This document shows, piece after piece, positions 31,328 to 62,101 of a stretch of DNA of 64,000 bases. Origin of the DNA: Pseudomonas capeferrum (lineage in GTDB: Bacteria > Pseudomonadota > Gammaproteobacteria > Pseudomonadales > Pseudomonadaceae); contig NZ_JAAMQM010000002.1 in assembly GCF_013523055.1 (NCBI RefSeq), positions 124,001 through 188,000 on the forward strand. Reading direction: 5' to 3'. The translations under genes and the position numbers were made by a program. The notes beneath the pieces are model-generated. The model was not told the DNA's origin, did not search any database, and saw only the letters and a list, made by a program, of their open reading frames with translations. How positions within the stretch are numbered: position 1 is the first letter of the stretch; every line of letters starts with the position of its first letter.

Positions 31328-31806
31328 CCATAAGCCTGCGGCGAGTCTGATGGCCTTGTCGCGGGACGAGCCCGCTCGCCACTGGGATGCGGTGCGGCGA
31401 CAAGCGAGTCAGGGGCCGCACGTGAGACAAGCCAGTTCATCATTGGGGCATGTGCGCTACGTATCCATAAGCCTGCGGCGAGTCTGATGGCCTTGTCGCG
31501 GGACGAGCCCGCTCGCCACCGGTATGCGGTGCGGCGACAAGTGAGTCAGGGTCCGCACGTGAGACAAGCCAGTTCATCATTGGGGGCATGCATTCGCTGC
31601 GCTACGTACCCATAAGCCTGCGGCGAGTCTGATGGCCTTGTCGCGGGACGAGCCCGCTCGCCACCGGGATGCGGTGCGGCGACAAGCGAGTCAGGGGCCG
31701 CACGTGAGACAAGCCAGCTCATCATTGGGAACATGCATTCGCTGCACCACGTACCGGTGGCGAGCGGGCTTGTCCCGCGACAAGGCCCTCAGCCTTATGA
31801 AAGACT
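31328..31806. repeat. Tandem array of three REP-bearing units, closed by an inverted REP
   Basis: Three units start at 31328, 31465 and 31610 with CCATAAGCCTGCGGCGAGTC, each holding one REP core (GGGACGAGCCCGCTCGCCAC) and the segment GCGGCGACAAGCGAGTCAGG. Unit lengths are 137 and 145 bp. After the third, an oppositely oriented REP (GGTGGCGAGCGGGCTTGTCC) closes the array. Nothing in it looks coding. Confidence 0.88.
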
Positions 31807-43457: not shown

Positions 43458-43616
43458 CGGTGTTGTCTCAAGCGATCAGGGTGTTCGATGCGGTCAATAG
43501 TATCGAGGAACGCCAGCCGAGGGTGGATCGATGTTGCAGAAAGCCATCACCGTTGCTCATCCATTGGCCTTATTGGCCGATAACCTGGCATGAACCCCGT
43601 ATGCCGGTCGAGAGCA

Positions 43617-46172
43617 ATGATCAAGAATCCCACCTGTGGTCCCACCCCCCCAGCAAGCCAGGGCCAGAGCGTCAATCTGACGCGCGCCTCATTATTCTTG
43701 TTCACCGGGCTTCTGACATTGGTCCTGTTGTTCGCCGGCGCGCTTGCCACCTATTTCGCGCTCAACCTGGACCGGACAGAGGCGAAGAAAGCGGCCTTCC
43801 TTGCCGACAAGGCGGTCCAATCGCTGCGCAAGAACGTACTGGCAACGACCAAGGATTATGCGTTCTGGGGCGACGCCTACCGCAACCTGCATCTTGCGCT
43901 GGATACGGAATGGGCATTCGTCCAGGAGAATCTAGGTCCTACACTGTTCCCGGCCTTTGGTTTCAATGGTGTGTTCGTGATCGGCACCGCGGACCAGACA
44001 CTCTATTCGGTGATTGATGGCAAACGCTCGCAGGTGCCTGCCGCGCAGTGGCTAGGTGAGCCACTCGACCAGCTAGTGCGGGAGGCTCGTGCGCAGGAAG
44101 AGCACGAGAAGTCGGTAAGCGCATTCGTACGTACGAACGCAGCGCTGGTCCTGATCGGTGCCGCGGCCATTACGCCGGGTACGGACCCGACAGTACAGCG
44201 CGACGACGGCCTGGCATCGGTACTGGTATTCGCCAGGAGGCTCGACAACGGCAGCCTGGAATCCCTCGGTAACAGCTTCGGCGTCGAACACCTGCGTTTG
44301 GCTCAACGCCCGGCACTCGAGCCAGGTCAGGTAATGGACAAGGCGAAAGCGCTAGCGACGCTTGCATGGAGTCCCCCGACGCCGGGCCGCGAAATACTGG
44401 CGTTCATGCTGCCTCTGCTGGGGCTGTTCGCGCTGCTCGTCTACCTGATGGTATGGATAATCCTGCGCCGTGCCACGGCAGCGGCGAAGCTGCTCGATCT
44501 CAGTCATGTCGCCTTGCAACGCAGTCAGGGGGCGCTGGCCATCAGCGAAGCGCGCTTTCGGGATGTGGCCGAGGCCAGTTCGGACTGGATATGGGAGGTC
44601 GATGACCAAGGCCGGTTCACCTATCTCTCCGAACGGTTCGAGATCATTACCGGCTTCGCCCGGGAGGCCTGGCTGGGGATCGCCATAGAAAAGCTGGTCA
44701 AAGGCGAGGAGGGGTCGCTGCTGGAATGGTTGAACCACCGGTCCAGGAGCGCCAATGCTTCCTTCCAATGCACCTGCGTGGACAAGGAAGGCGGATATCG
44801 CATCCTGCGGGTGACGGCCAGGGACATGCAGGGCCAAGGCTATCGCGGGACCGCCGTGGACATCACCGACGATGTCGAGGCGCGAAAACGTATCGAGTAC
44901 CTCTCCGAACATGACGTCTTGACCGGGCTGCCAAACCGAGAACGCCTGCGGGACTTCCTGGAAGGAAGGCTCAGGTCCGCGTCGACCGGCACGAACCCTC
45001 TGGTGATGTTCAGCATCGACCTCGACCGTTTCAAACCGGTGAACGATCTGCTGGGCCATGCGGTAGGCGACCGGGTGCTGCTCGAAACCGCACGGCGGTT
45101 GGGCGAATGCGTGCGCAGCGGGGACCTGGTGGCGAGGGTCGGAGGGGATGAGTTCGTGATGGTCGTCACCGGTATGCTCGATCATGTGGAGATCGAGGCG
45201 CTCTGTCGCCGATTGATCGATGCGGTCGAGCAGCCGATCCAGCTCGAAGAGCAGAACATCTTCATCAGCGCCAGTATCGGGATTGCCCTGTCGCCAAGTG
45301 ACGCACGCGAGGCAGCGGAGCTGCTGCGCTATTCCGATATCGCGCTCTACGAAGCCAAGGCGAGCGGCAGAGGCACCTGGCGCTTCTACGCGGGTGACAT
45401 GAATGCGCGGATCATCGAGCGCCGACGGCTTGAAAGCGACCTGCGTTATGGCATCAAGAATGGCGAACTGCGCCTGTATTTCCAACCGCGTTTTCGGATC
45501 AGCGATGGCCAGATGGTCGGCGCCGAAGCGCTGGTGCGTTGGCAGCATCCTCAACGTGGGCTGGTTTATCCGGATACCTTCATCCCGATAGCCGAAGACA
45601 CGGGGCTCATCGCATCGTTGAGTGACTGGGTCCTCGATGCGGCGTGCAAGACGGCCGCCGACTGGCCTGAAGAACTGTTCGTATCGGTCAACCTGTCCTC
45701 CAAGGAGTTCCAGTCCACTCAATTGATCGAGCGGATCGAGCGGGTCCTGGCTGTTTCCAGATTGCAACCCGCTCGCCTGGAGCTGGAGCTGACCGAAAGC
45801 GTGATGGTCGAGGACGCCACGAGTGCCTTGAGTATCATGCGATCGCTCAAGGCATTGGGCGTGAAGTTGGCGATGGATGATTTCGGGACCGGCTATTCGT
45901 CACTGAGCTACTTGCGCTCGTTCCCGTTCGATGGGCTGAAGATCGACCGCAGCTTCGTGAGCCGATTGGGCGAGAGCGAGGATGACAAGGCCATCATCCA
46001 GGCGATCGTTGGCCTGGGCCGTGCATTGTCGCTGACCGTGACCGCCGAGGGCATCGAAACCCCGGAGCATCTGGCGCTGTTGAAAGCCGTGACCTGCGAT
46101 GAGGGACAGGGGTATCACCTGAGCAGACCGATGGATGCGGTCGCGTTCAATCAGATGATGATGACGACCTAG
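43617..46172 (+). CDS. Membrane GGDEF-EAL protein (CHASE4-PAS)
   Basis: An 851-residue inner-membrane enzyme of c-di-GMP turnover. Helix at about residues 20-45, a periplasmic CHASE4-type domain (TTKDYAFWGDAYRNLHLALD), a second helix (LAFMLPLLGLFALLVYLMVW), a PAS domain, a GGDEF domain with intact RVGGDEF and an RxxD inhibitory site (RSGD) five residues before it, and an EAL domain with AEALVRWQHP, DDFGTGYSSLSYLRSF and TAEGIETPEH. Both halves look catalytically competent. Start at 43617 (MIKNPT) or 27 nt upstream; evidence does not separate them. Confidence 0.9.
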   Translation: MIKNPTCGPTPPASQGQSVNLTRASLFLFTGLLTLVLLFAGALATYFALNLDRTEAKKAAFLADKAVQSLRKNVLATTKDYAFWGDAYRNLHLALDTEWAFVQENLGPTLFPAFGFNGVFVIGTADQTLYSVIDGKRSQVPAAQWLGEPLDQLVREARAQEEHEKSVSAFVRTNAALVLIGAAAITPGTDPTVQRDDGLASVLVFARRLDNGSLESLGNSFGVEHLRLAQRPALEPGQVMDKAKALATLAWSPPTPGREILAFMLPLLGLFALLVYLMVWIILRRATAAAKLLDLSHVALQRSQGALAISEARFRDVAEASSDWIWEVDDQGRFTYLSERFEIITGFAREAWLGIAIEKLVKGEEGSLLEWLNHRSRSANASFQCTCVDKEGGYRILRVTARDMQGQGYRGTAVDITDDVEARKRIEYLSEHDVLTGLPNRERLRDFLEGRLRSASTGTNPLVMFSIDLDRFKPVNDLLGHAVGDRVLLETARRLGECVRSGDLVARVGGDEFVMVVTGMLDHVEIEALCRRLIDAVEQPIQLEEQNIFISASIGIALSPSDAREAAELLRYSDIALYEAKASGRGTWRFYAGDMNARIIERRRLESDLRYGIKNGELRLYFQPRFRISDGQMVGAEALVRWQHPQRGLVYPDTFIPIAEDTGLIASLSDWVLDAACKTAADWPEELFVSVNLSSKEFQSTQLIERIERVLAVSRLQPARLELELTESVMVEDATSALSIMRSLKALGVKLAMDDFGTGYSSLSYLRSFPFDGLKIDRSFVSRLGESEDDKAIIQAIVGLGRALSLTVTAEGIETPEHLALLKAVTCDEGQGYHLSRPMDAVAFNQMMMTT

Positions 46173-46266
46173 GAAACAGGCTTCGGCGTGGATCGAGTAA
46201 CTGAAAAGCAGAGGAGCGAGCGAAGATGATACCGACGTCATTCAAAGACTCTATCGGGGCCTGGTC

Positions 46267-46587
46267 ATGAACCCGAGCACACCGGACGGTCGATATTTCG
46301 TGGTCAAGGGTCAGCTCTGGCGTTGCAGCGATCCCTCGCTGGCCGAGGACGTTCGACAAGGATCGGTCGACGAACTCATGGCCGGGAGGCGGGACGTCAA
46401 GGCGGCCAAGGCCTCGGGCGAGGTAGCGCAGTTGAAGGCCGCTCGGGCCCGCGTCAACGCCGCCAAGGTGGCGCTCGGCGAGCGAGGGCCCGTCTGGTGG
46501 GATGACGGGAGCCCGGATTACAACAGGTTCCTGGTCACCAACACGCCTTACGCCGACTGGTACCGCGCGCTCGGCCCGCGGACCTGA
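46267..46587 (+). CDS. Conserved hypothetical protein
   Basis: A 106-residue soluble protein. The N-terminus (GRYFVVKGQLWRCSDPSLAE) and C-terminus (GPVWWDDGSPDYNRFLVTNT) flank a helical Lys/Arg/Ala-rich middle (AAKASGEVAQLKAARARVNA). I have the impression that it belongs to a small family widespread in proteobacteria but know no function. GGGG lies seven bases before the ATG. Confidence 0.75.
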   Translation: MNPSTPDGRYFVVKGQLWRCSDPSLAEDVRQGSVDELMAGRRDVKAAKASGEVAQLKAARARVNAAKVALGERGPVWWDDGSPDYNRFLVTNTPYADWYRALGPRT

Positions 46588-46708
46588 CGTGTTCGACAAG
46601 GCCATGGACAGGTCACGTGTCTGAATCGGACGCGCGGTGATCGTTCATGTCTTGCGCCGACTACCTCGCCACACGGCCTTCCCGTAGAATCCGCGCCCTT
46701 TTGCTGGG

Positions 46709-47088
46709 ATGTGGAGGATGGTCAGGGGTGAAAACCGCGCTACGGCGTGTGGATTGGTGACGATTGTCTTGTGGAGCACCGCCGCCGGTCTCATCAGGAG
46801 CGTGAGTGACGGTTTCGGCGCGCTGGGTGGAGCGGCCCTGATCTATGCCTGGGGCGCCATCCTGCTGTTGATCCTCTTCGGCAAACCGCGGCTGCGCTGG
46901 TCTTCGCGCTTCTACCTGGTCGTCGGCAGTGCGCTGTTCGTCGCCTATGAAGTCTGTCTTTCACTGTCGTTGGGGTATGCGAACGACAGCAACCAGGCGA
47001 TCGAGCTGGGGGTCGTGAACTACCTGTGGCCGTGCCTCACGGTGCTACTGGCCATCTTCATGAGCGGCCAGCGCGCCAGCCTGCTGGG
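46709..47088 (+). pseudogene. yddG: YddG-type aromatic amino acid exporter, truncated
   Basis: About 125 residues match the N-terminal four helices of the YddG drug/metabolite transporter: GLVTIVLWSTAAGLIRSVSD, GAALIYAWGAILLLI, YEVCLSLSLGYANDSNQAIE and LGVVNYLWPCLTVLLAIFMS. Similarity stops after SGQRASLLG at about 47088, with the remaining six helices gone. The frame continues open through unrelated sequence into a tandem repeat until 47797 because the repeat period is divisible by three, but that extension is not protein-like. Confidence 0.88.
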
Positions 47089-47169
47089 TCCGGCATGCCC
47101 TGATGCCTGGCAGTCAGGGAAGCCGTCTGATCTGGATGTTGAAGCTCATCGTTCGGTTTCTGAGATCAG

Positions 47170-47945
47170 CTGTGCGGCTGCTGCCCCTGTCGCGGGGCAA
47201 GCCCGCTCACCACTGGTTCTGTGCAAGTCATGCCACTGGTTGTGTGCAAGCCATGCCACTGGTCTGTGCAGGTCATGCCACTGGTTGTGTGCAAGCCATG
47301 CCACTGGTCTGTGCAGGTCATGCCACTGGTTCTGTGCAAGTCATGTCACTGGTCTGTGCAGTTCATGCCACTGGTTGTGTGGAAGACATGCCACTGGTTT
47401 TGTGCAAGTCATACCAATGGTCTGTGCAGGTCATGCCACTGGTTGGGTGCAAGACATGCCATTGGTTCTTTACAGGCCATGCCACTGGTTGTGTGGAAGA
47501 CATGCCACTGGTTTTGTGCAAGTCATAACACTGTTCTGCGCAAGTCATGTCATTGGTCTGTTCAGGTCATGTCACTGGTTGTGTGCAAGACATGCCACTG
47601 GTTCTGTGCAAGTCATGTCACTGGTCTGTGCAGGTCATGCCACTGGTTGTGTGGAAGACATGCCACTGGTTGTGTGCAAGTCATACCACTGGTCTGTGCA
47701 GGTCATGCCACTGGTTGTGGGCAAGACATGCCATTGGTTCTTTACAGGCCATGCCACTGTTGCTGTGGAAGACATGCCACTGGTTCTGTGCAGGTGATGC
47801 CAGCGATATAAACAAGCTATGAAAGATGCTGGTGCCTTAGGCCTACGCTGGTGCTTTAAGCCTGCGCTGGTGTTCTGGCCCAAGTGGGGCACCGGTGGCA
47901 TGACTTGCGAAGAACCGGTGGCGAGCGGGCTTGTCCCGCGATAGG
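47170..47945. repeat. Minisatellite of about 25 units (22/23 bp) between two inverted REPs
   Basis: From 47211 to about 47804 the motif CATGCCACTGGT plus TGTGTGCAAG or CTGTGCAGGT repeats every 22 or 23 bp, alternating so that two units make 45 bp. A higher-order period of 272 bp is visible: ATTGGTTCTTTACAGGCC occurs at 47461 and again at 47733. A REP (GTCGCGGGGCAAGCCCGCTC) lies at the left edge and the inverse REP (GGTGGCGAGCGGGCTTGTCC) at 47918-47940. The right flank still carries one unit-like copy next to the REP (47890-47912). Confidence 0.92.
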
Positions 47946-48022
47946 GCCAGCAGCTTCACAGAAAATTACAGGGGGGTTACGCTCCATTTGCATAACCCGC
48001 CAGCCCAACTGCGCTGCTCCAC

Positions 48023-49402
48023 TCAAAGATGCAACGCATGCCCCAACGCCCGCAGCGCCGCCTCCTGCACCGCCTCCCCCAAGGTCGGATGCGCATGGAT
48101 GGTCCCCGCGATATCTTCCAGCCTAGCGCCCATTTCCAGTGACTGGGCAAACGCGCTGGACAGCTCCGATACCCCCACGCCGACAGCCTGCCAACCCATC
48201 ACCAGGTGATTGTCACGACGAGCGACCACGCGCACGAACCCGCTACGCGATTCGAGCGTCATGGCGCGCCCGTTGGCGGCGAAGGGGAACTGCGCGACGA
48301 TGCAGTCCAGGCCCTGCTGGCCGGCCTGTTCAGGTGTAGTACCCACCACCACCAGCTCCGGATCGGTGAAGCACACGGCGGCAATCGCGGCGGGCTCGAA
48401 ACGCCGAGATTTGCCGGCGATCAGTTCCGCCACCATCTCGCCTTGGGCCATCGCCCGATGGGCCAGCATGGGTTCACCCGTCAGGTCACCGATGGCCCAT
48501 ACGTTGCGCATGCTGGTCTGGCAACGTGCGTCCACGTCGATAGCCGGGCCGTTCATCTTCAAGTCCAGGCATTCCAGGCCCTGCGTGCGTGGCCGACGGC
48601 CTACCGCGACCAGCACTCGGTCCGCTTCGAGGGTCAACGTCTGCCCCTGGCCATCGCGAGCCGTCAGGCACTGGCTAGCCGGATCGTAACCCTCGACGCT
48701 GTGACCCAGGTAAAGCTGGATACCGAGCTTGCCGATCGACTCGGCCACCGGCTGGGTCAGCTCGCTGTCGTAGGTCGGCAAGATACGCTCGCGCGCTTCG
48801 ACCACGCTGACCCTAGCGCCGAGCTTGCGGTAGGCAATGCCCAGCTCCAGGCCGATGTAGCCGCCACCCACCACCACCAGGTGCTTGGGCAACGTCTCGG
48901 GCGCCAGGGCCTCGGTCGACGAGATGATCGGTCCGCCCAGGGGCAGCATCGGCAACTCGACACTGCTCGAACCGGTCGCCAGCAGCAGGTGTTCACAATG
49001 AATCCGCTGGCCATCGACCTCGACGTTCTTGCCATCGACGATCGTTGCCCAGCCCTGGATCACCTTGACCCCGTGCTTTTTCAGCAGCGCGGCTACCCCG
49101 GTCGTCAGGCGATCGACGATGCCGTCCTTCCAGGCCACGCTGCGGCCGATGTCCAGCCTCGGTGCACTGACGTGAATGCCGAGCGCCGAGCCATCCTGGT
49201 GGCTGCAAGCCTGATGGAATTGCTCGGCCACATGAATCAGCGCCTTGGAGGGGATGCAGCCGATGTTCAGGCAGGTACCGCCCAGGGCCTGGCCTTCGAC
49301 CAGTACCGTGGGGATGCCCAGTTGCCCGGCGCGAATGGCAGCCACATAGCCGCCAGGTCCGCCGCCGATGACCAGCAGGGTCGTATCGAGGGTCTGTTGC
49401 AT
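48023..49402 (-). CDS. lpdV: Dihydrolipoamide dehydrogenase of the branched-chain complex (E3)
   Basis: A 459-residue flavoprotein that reoxidises the lipoyl arm of the branched-chain keto acid dehydrogenase. [14 protein letters not shown] is the FAD site; the redox-active disulfide is in [28 protein letters not shown] binds NAD; the catalytic His is in [12 protein letters not shown] at the C-terminus. Length equals the known P. putida LpdV. It begins 2 nt after bkdB ends and is the last gene of the bkd operon. Confidence 0.95.
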
Positions 49403-49404
49403 CG

Positions 49405-50751
49405 TCACTCCACGAACAGGCAGGCAGGTTGTTCCAACAGGCCGCGCACGGCCTGGATGAACAGCGCGGCATCCATGCCGTCGACCACCCGGTGATCGAA
49501 CGAGCTGGACAGGTTCATCATCTTGCGCACCACGATCTGGCCATCGATCACCACGGGCCGATCGACCATGCGGTTGACGCCGACGATCGCCACCTCCGGT
49601 GTATTGACCACCGGTGTGCTGGCAATGCCCCCCAACGCCCCGAGGCTGGTCAGGGTGATGGTCGAACCGGACATTTCCTCGCGCGTGGCCTTGTTGTTGC
49701 GCGCGGCATGCGCCAGGCGCGTGATCTCGCTGGCGTTGTCCCACAGGCTGCCCGCTTCGGCATGGCGCAGGACCGGTACCATCAGGCCATTGTCGCCCTG
49801 GGTGGCAATGCCTACGTGCACGGCGCCGTGACGGGTGATGACCTGAGCTTCATCGTCATAGGTGGCGTTGATCTGCGGAAAGTCGCGCAGGGCAACGACC
49901 ATGGCCCGGACCAGCAGGGGTAGCAAGGTCAGCTTGCCGCGACTCTCGCTCCATTGCTTGTTCAGGTGCAGGCGCAGGGCTTCGAGCGCCGTGACGTCGA
50001 TCTCCTCGACATAGCTGAAATGCGCGACCCGGCGCTTGGCATCCTGCATGCGCTGGGCGATCTTGCGGCGCAGGCCGATGACCGGGATCTGCTCGCTGTC
50101 AGTGCGCCTGTCATAGCCGCCTGGCGCTTGGCCGACACGGGTATTCGGCCGGCTCATGAAGCTGTCGAGATCTTCGTGCAGGATACGACCGGCGGGCCCG
50201 CTGCCTTGTACGTAGCGCAATTCGATGCCGGCATCCAGGGCGCGCTTGCGCACGGCAGGGGAGGCGAGGGGCTTCTCGTCGGCCTGGCGATGCGCCACGG
50301 AAGCCGCGCAACCCGTGTAGCGCCCCCCAGCGCCAACCGCAGCTGGGGCTCCCTCGGACTGGACGGCATCAGCCATGGCAGAGGCGCCCTGTGGCTGGAC
50401 GGCGCCAACTGCGGCAGAAGCAGCTGGCAGCTGGACAGCGCTTGCCGCCTCCACGGCCCCAGCTGGCTCGACCAGCTTGGCCTGCGGTGTGTCGACATGA
50501 TTGCCGCTGCCTTCCACTTCGATGCGAATCAGCTCACTGCCGACCGCCATCACTTCACCGGGCTCACCGCCCAGCGCCAAGACCTTGCCGCTGACCGGCG
50601 AGGGTATCTCGACGGTTGCCTTGTCGGTCATGACATCAGCCACCACCTGATCCTCGGTGATGGTGTCGCCTATCTTGACGAACCATTCCACCAGTTCCAC
50701 CTGCGCGATGCCCTCGCCAATGTCCGGCATCTTGATGACGTGCGTGCCCAT
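49405..50751 (-). CDS. bkdB: Branched-chain keto acid dehydrogenase E2 (lipoamide acyltransferase)
   Basis: A 448-residue transacylase that forms the complex core. One lipoyl domain at residues 1-80 with the lipoylated Lys in [10 protein letters not shown]; a long Ala/Pro/Gln-rich flexible linker; a subunit-binding domain ([20 protein letters not shown]); and the catalytic domain ending [14 protein letters not shown] with the HxxxDG active site. The linker contains repeated AVQ-x-GA units and makes the protein somewhat longer than the P. putida reference. Its start abuts the bkdA2 stop with no gap. Confidence 0.95.
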
Positions 50752-61524: not shown

Positions 61525-62101
61525 ATTGCCAGGCGAGTCCTTCGGACTCGATCGCGGGACAAGCCCGCTCGCCACCGGGAGTCACTTCGCCCGGTAGCAA
61601 GCCCGGCCACCACCGGGAATCACCTCACCCGGTAGCAAGCCCGGCCACTACCGGGAATCACCTCACCCGGTAGCAAGCCCGGCCACTACCGGGAATTACC
61701 TCACCCGGTAGCAAGCCCGGCCACTACCGGGAATCACCTCGCCCGGTAGCAAGCCCGGCCACCACCGGGAATCACCTCGCCCGGTAGCTAGCCCGGCCAC
61801 TACTGGGAATCACCTCACCCGGCAGCAAGCCCGGCCACCACCGGGAGTCACTTCGCCCGGTAGCAAGTCCGGCCACCACCGGGAATCACCTCACCCGGTA
61901 GCAAGCCCGGCCACTACTGGGAATCACCTCGCCCGGTAGCAAGCCCGGCCACCACCGGGAATCACCTCACCCGGTAGCAAGCCCGGCCACCACCGGGAAT
62001 CACCTCGCCCGGTAGCAAGCCCGGTCACTACCGGGAATCACCCTGTACCGGTGGCGAGCGGGCTTGCCCCGCGATCGAGGCCGAAGGACTCGCCTGGCAA
62101 T
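61525..62101. repeat. 38-bp tandem array (about 12 units) between 55-bp inverted REP arms
   Basis: Left arm 61525-61579 and right arm 62047-62101 are reverse complements with three mismatches and include the REP core and the outer sequence ATTGCCAGGCGAGTCCTTCG. Between them the unit CCGGGAATCACCTCACCCGG-TAGCAAGCCCGGCCACTA recurs every 38 bp, with first and last copies near 61575 and 62029. Units differ by a few bases (CACTA/CACCA, CTCAC/CTCGC). Confidence 0.93.

Follow-up and report, generated by a model that had tools for sequence, protein, structure and literature searches.

A minisatellite fills the loop between two inverted REPs in Pseudomonas capeferrum, and we posit, with a probability of about 0.6, that the locus is a REPIN whose short loop was replaced by a locally grown minisatellite. 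REPINs consist of two inverted REPs, and a RAYT transposase is believed to mobilise them in trans. The features of the locus and its surroundings are listed in Table 1, with positions counted in the window, that is, the whole stretch of 64,000 nucleotides that was analysed.

Table 1. Features of the array-filled REP doublet, its neighbourhood, and a second such doublet in the window.
Feature	Position	Strand	Basis or remark
yddG 5' stump (DMT-family exporter of aromatic amino acids), about 123 of 300 codons kept	46709..47080	+	NCBIfam; YddG of a relative
362-aa ORF spanning yddG stump, left REP and the greater part of the array	46709..47797	+	TGA stop at 47795-47797
Left REP, R1 family, 2 mismatches	47190..47213	+	Consensus scan
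Minisatellite	47210..47802	+	TRF; unit segmentation; first unit overlaps the left REP by 4 bases
Short tandem repeat, 19 bp x 2.4, in the same loop as the 26-unit array	47828..47872	+	TRF
Single inverted unit copy abutting the right REP	47891..47917	-	Mirror match to the left arm
Right REP, R1 family, exact consensus	47918..47941	-	Consensus scan
lpdV-like dihydrolipoyl dehydrogenase, convergent neighbour	48023..49471 (start provisional)	-	TIGR01350, E 8.7e-139; ORF 48023-49744
Second array-filled doublet in the window	61552..62074		REPs 61552-61575 (+) and 62051-62074 (-); TRF, REP scan

Segmentation of the array resolved 26 head-to-tail, imperfect units, 18 of 23 bp and eight of 22 bp, which agrees with the usual size of minisatellite units (about 10-100 bp), in a draft assembly (5.97 Mb, 95 contigs) where array lengths may be misstated. 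The G+C content of the array is 0.52. Above the single unit a second-level period of 272 bp was found, with a self-identity of 0.849 over 325 positions against 0.626 for the next best shift. This period stems mainly from units 6-14, which recur as units 18-26 (about nine units, edit distances 0-4), and is weak between units 1-5 and units 13-17 (edit distances 3-7). A first-pass annotation of this DNA had proposed an array of about 25 units between opposed REPs, a 272-bp second-level repeat and growth in blocks; the segmentation and the shift analysis confirm the former two, and the recurrence of units 6-14 supports the last.

Both flanking REPs belong to a family termed R1, read here with the consensus TCGCGGGACAAGCCCGCTCGCCAC, which represents the main REP of the genome (353 copies at up to three mismatches). 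The locus shares with REPINs the pair of inverted REPs and a genomic background of many related REPs (the same 353 copies) together with two Y1_Tnp genes. It also shares the hairpin: in a single-strand DNA fold of 47160-47960 both REPs and the arms adjoining them form a long closing stem, and the minimum-energy fold of doublet plus array has a z-score of -3.17 relative to 20 shuffles. In the two arms, bases 2-27 counted from the REP inwards mirror each other at 23 of the 26 positions, as the first-pass annotation had noted in describing an inverse unit copy beside the right REP. The loop departs from what is expected of a REPIN with short-looped sisters, measuring 704 bp, whereas 62 of the 80 R1 doublets surveyed have loops of at most 60 bp. 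No REP was found inside it (R1 at up to five, R2 at up to four mismatches), whereas in a BIME-2 element the repeated unit includes the REP. Mirrored arms were considered and rejected as a general cause of arrays, since the other array-filled doublets surveyed score 10 or less for this property. Scores of 25-27, against 20 here, were found in four array-free doublets with loops of 154-157 bp (C66:209330-209532, C2:131745-131949, C22:78592-78791 and C77:166914-167116, where C labels contigs). These four, two R1 and two R2, have long mirrored inner arms and are perhaps a distinct element.

In order to place this locus among the other REP doublets, 2.34 Mb or 39% of this one draft genome were surveyed on partly chosen contigs (C22, C11 1-420000, C44, C66, C55, C88, C2, C77, C40 and C30 1-20000), using two REP families defined from the genome itself, R1 (up to five mismatches) and R2 (up to four mismatches). 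The survey yielded 205 R1 and 104 R2 REPs and 99 doublets in the order + then - with a gap of at most 1500 bp (80 R1, 19 R2). It was to these doublets that the array test was applied, 23 pairs of the opposite order (6 R1, 17 R2) being set aside. Arrays filled all eight loops longer than 200 bp, four of the 21 loops of 61-200 bp, and none of the 70 loops of 60 bp or less. The eight long loops hold units of 7, 22/23, 36, 38, 42 and 45 bp in R1 doublets and of 26 and 36 bp in R2 doublets. The earlier proposal of array growth inside a REP doublet is thereby strengthened, other doublets of the genome being array-filled too. One of them lies in the same window (Table 1), where a 38-bp unit is repeated 12.7 times (61560-62042), beginning within one REP and stopping 8 bp short of the other. 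The largest loop found, 966 bp, belongs to an R2 doublet (C22:269089-270100) and carries a 26-bp unit in 37 copies.

Ten of the 16 arrays with a span of at least 100 bp and a period of at most 60 lie inside doublets, which make up 0.55% of the sequence (binomial chance 2e-19). The six remaining arrays comprise one R2-REP tandem, one hexamer and four coding-like arrays (C11:158077, C44:172108, C44:172260 and C77:206652); the periods of the latter are multiples of three and they lie in open frames 185-537 codons long, so that they are probably genic. Under a stricter null, in which these four were dropped and arrays were assumed to be confined to the intergenic 8-12% of the DNA, the chance of finding 10 of 12 arrays in doublets is 1.4e-10 to 2.5e-12. 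Four contigs (C22, C44, C2 and C40) were already known to contain a widened doublet before being read as a whole, and C30 was selected because it has a RAYT-like gene and a small array. When the five arrays with previously known doublets are excluded, five of 11 arrays lie in doublets (2.4e-9), or five of seven under the stricter null (2.9e-5 to 3.9e-6). On C11, C55, C66, C77 and C88 (1.44 Mb, without prior knowledge), one of four arrays lies in a doublet, with a chance of 0.012; the signal in these five contigs rests on that one case.

Within the genome the unit itself was found at this locus only. At up to three mismatches its pattern has 14 matches in the genome, all within this array, so that it is not part of an array-bearing element dispersed in the genome, as BrickBuilt is. 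A shorter pattern at up to one mismatch was searched in 398 genomes of the genus, the own genome included, drawn evenly from a larger group. It gave 15 matches here and one each in seven genomes, and no array of the unit in the 397 other genomes, where arrays of more diverged units would escape the pattern. Searched at E 0.1 against the surveyed 2.34 Mb, the flanks 47080-47185 and 47800-47905 matched nowhere else. A search for a genome of the same species found none, the best lpdV match among 56 other relatives having 81% identity, and the best matches listed for 43500-47200 in the 397 genus genomes reach 71-76%. A scan of genome contigs, which may omit records of the own genome or very near ones, returned at least 40 related loci, 26 of them from Pseudomonas, with 76% protein identity as the best listed.

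In some of the arrays the starting point can still be read. The first unit here starts at offset -4, on the left REP's own edge (CCAC), which forms part of that unit, and two 37-bp arrays on C30 share this start. Among 12 array starts, seven lie within 11 bp of the inner edge of the left REP (including that of the 26-bp array, at 9 bp), one lies 16 bp inside the left REP and four lie 17-41 bp beyond its edge. A copy of the unit in an array-free doublet was not found, the best other loops scoring 13.0 with the left arm and 12.0 with the right arm, and the control, 100 shuffles of the right arm only, having a mean of 10.6 and a maximum of 14.0. C88:167468-167553 was accordingly rejected as an unexpanded sister doublet (loop 13.0 versus the shuffled right-arm maximum of 14.0). 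The first-pass suggestion that the unit derives from the spacer of an ordinary doublet is thus only partly supported: the first unit does begin on the REP edge, but none of the array-free doublets was found to hold the unit.

Likeness between units and REPs was tested with 500 shuffles per array in 12 arrays, the C39 32-bp array being left out, and all p-values are uncorrected. It reached p <= 0.020 in five of the 12 (the 38-, 45- and 42-bp arrays, one 37-bp array and the R2 36-bp array). It was not significant for the 22/23-bp array (p 0.62), the other 37-bp array (0.084), the C2 36-bp array (0.77) or the 33-bp (0.17), 19-bp (0.44), 26-bp (0.99) and 7-bp (0.98) arrays. We therefore rejected the idea that all units are decayed REP halves, as p fell below 0.05 in only five of 12 arrays and not in this one. 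The opposite idea, that the units are wholly unrelated to each other, is contradicted by alike pairs among 11 units: of 55 pairs (200 shuffles, uncorrected), five were alike at p < 0.01 and eight at p < 0.05. The pairs at p < 0.01 include the two 37-bp units, which are nearly identical (score 70), as well as 45/42, 42/C39-32 and C2-36/R2-36. The 22/23-bp unit resembles the C40 42-bp unit (p 0.005) and the C2 36-bp unit (p 0.02), again uncorrected. Some arrays may hence share a source, and a decayed REP piece in common is a possible reason for the likeness.

Two Y1_Tnp genes were found in the genome, one on C30 and one on C39, and because REP doublets adjoin them we infer that they are RAYTs and not other Y1 transposases. 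Array-filled doublets adjoin both. The C30 gene has two R1 doublets upstream, with loops of 178 and 176 bp and 37-bp arrays of nearly the same unit. The C39 gene, on the minus strand (frame 1126-1671 in L178), has upstream an R2 doublet (1691-2206) whose 470-bp loop holds a 32-bp array of 13.9 copies, and downstream a 22/23-bp array (932-1102) that runs into a REP of related type. With the C39 doublet included, 11 arrays of at least 100 bp lie inside doublets. REPIN clusters next to RAYT genes have been described (available part of PMC3116915), and the capture of RAYT 3' ends between REPs is mentioned in the accessible text of PMC2817692. In L177 five copies of a 111-bp unit occupy 1327-1884, the first of them beginning in the final codons of a RAYT-like gene.

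According to our explanation, the array would have started when the REP-edge motif CCACYGGT mispaired with a second copy 23 bp inside the loop, through a slipped strand or a template switch favoured by the REP hairpin. Unequal exchange would then have copied blocks of several units, and the mirrored unit at the right REP might, as a guess, reflect hairpin-templated correction. REPs have been reported to interact with DNA polymerase I (PMC2817692, in the part available), which agrees with slippage at the REP hairpin and proves nothing. Most likely the array has no function of its own. A wider reading, to which we give somewhat less than even odds, is that REP doublets serve as nurseries of new minisatellites: the hairpin at the end of a REPIN would predispose the loop to be duplicated again and again, so that doublets would produce tandem arrays of their own, and this would be the origin of most non-coding minisatellites in genomes of this kind, those in RAYT-adjacent doublets included.

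The array lies between two genes, the yddG stump and the lpdV-like gene, which converge on the REP doublet. The stump matches the NCBIfam model NF008676 for YddG over residues 8-126 (E 2e-48, 165 bits versus a cut-off of 194), and residues 3-123 of a relative's 300-residue YddG align at 46718-47080 with 74% identity. A second yddG match is absent from the draft at E <= 0.001, leaving the remaining 177 codons unmatched, and judging from the sequence these 3' codons appear to be lost. The homology ends at 47080, which leaves 110 bp to the left REP and 130 bp to the array, and the reading frame continues through most of the array. The first-pass annotation had held that the array ended yddG; the gene is indeed truncated, but the array is not supported as the cause of the break, since the homology stops ahead of the REP and the 3' part is unmatched in the draft. 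A separate deletion or rearrangement is more likely. In all seven relatives with both matches listed, yddG and lpdV are on separate contigs or hundreds of kb from each other, and their junction here is therefore a rearrangement. The mean identity of the stump to 26 relatives is 0.743, inside the range of the relatives' own means (0.728-0.856, average 0.816), so that the loss of yddG looks recent or the stump is still constrained.

Three other explanations have to be weighed against local growth by slippage and exchange. A putative, and in our view unlikely, role of RAYT would be that the enzyme, acting at the REPs, repeatedly re-copies the loop DNA, growth then being RAYT-dependent and not a matter of ordinary slippage. 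The array-filled doublets beside the C39 gene (R2, loop 470 bp) and upstream of the C30 gene (two R1, 176 and 178 bp) speak for it, and the available part of PMC2817692 considers recombination or slippage alone unlikely for the length differences of BIMEs and proposes a RAYT-catalysed reaction. Eight of the 11 array-filled doublets with arrays of at least 100 bp, however, are on contigs without RAYT-like genes, and the block repeats inside the array are a trace of the kind left by slippage or unequal exchange, which argues against RAYT-driven growth.

A functional array, serving as a row of protein-binding sites, as a terminator between the convergent genes or as the translated tail of the YddG stump, is more doubtful still. 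In its favour, the reading frame of yddG stays open over most of the array, the doublet lies between convergent genes, and the identity of the stump (0.743) fits continued constraint as well as recent loss. Yet the commonest units have no stop trinucleotide on the + strand, so that a long open frame through the array comes easily, and the sole frame of six that is open across the whole array is not that of yddG. From doublet to doublet, moreover, the units vary, which speaks against a single binding protein, and the array was not found in the 397 other genus genomes searched. Least probable among the explanations is that the array was brought in by a mobile or foreign segment or was produced by the draft assembly, as its G+C content of 0.52, the rearranged yddG/lpdV junction and the 95 contigs of the draft might suggest; the array starts on the local REP, though, and its unit is mirrored at the other REP, while no other copy was found in the genome and no array of it in the 397 relatives, and other doublets hold other units.

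The REPIN with a locally grown minisatellite, our preferred reading, can be compared with several known systems, each described here from the available part of its source. The REPINs of Pseudomonas fluorescens SBW25, whose doublets peak at 71 or 110 bp, share with this genome the inverted REPs with a spacer, many genomic REPs and RAYT genes with a REPIN cluster (PMC3116915). Higher-order arrays in SBW25 repeat whole REPs or REPINs, whereas here the loop alone is repeated, up to 704 bp (966 bp in R2). REP dimers of the GTAG families, including those of P. putida, have variable spacers as here, but most measure 20 to 100 bp, and tandem arrays within them are not described in the accessible text (PMC3733652). 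In the BIME-2 and palindromic-unit arrays of E. coli, tandem repetition is likewise tied to palindromic units, the majority of the minisatellites in PMC2884548 being palindromic-unit elements; the REP there is inside the repeated unit, whereas no whole REP recurs in the array described here (PMC2817692, PMC2884548). The closest precedent is the BrickBuilt MITE of Porphyromonas gingivalis, in which inverted repeats bound a miniature element and a 23-nt minisatellite of 1 to 22.8 units lies within it (PMC4596501). BrickBuilt is one family whose unit was found 19 times in one genome, whereas the present unit occurs at one locus and its ends are REPs. In the open-access literature searched, including the available parts of PMC3116915, PMC3733652, PMC4596501, PMC3686654, PMC2817692 and PMC2884548, we found no description of minisatellites inside REPIN loops and no precedent for array-filled REPIN loops with mostly different units.

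How bacterial minisatellites originate can rarely be seen. In this genome one type of element houses several arrays, mostly of different units, and in some of these arrays the start at the inner edge of the REP is legible. If finished genomes bear this out, REPINs would provide a path, open to testing, by which a mobile hairpin becomes a tandem array; they would also supply ready candidates for typing markers in Pseudomonas and point to one way for a REPIN to lose its mobility.

Other repeats were seen in the window and in relatives. At 31328-31755 of the window, three tandem 145-bp units each carry a REP and are followed by an inverted REP, which is the ordinary form of a REP tandem and unlike the 26-unit array. 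The relatives G031 and G017 have many near-identical REPs, whose close pairs, among those listed, are mostly in the order - then + and about 67-85 bp apart. Near the start of the window, three tRNA-Arg (ACG) genes at 1097, 1247 and 1398 lie in a 151-bp unit repeated 2.5 times (1096-1476).
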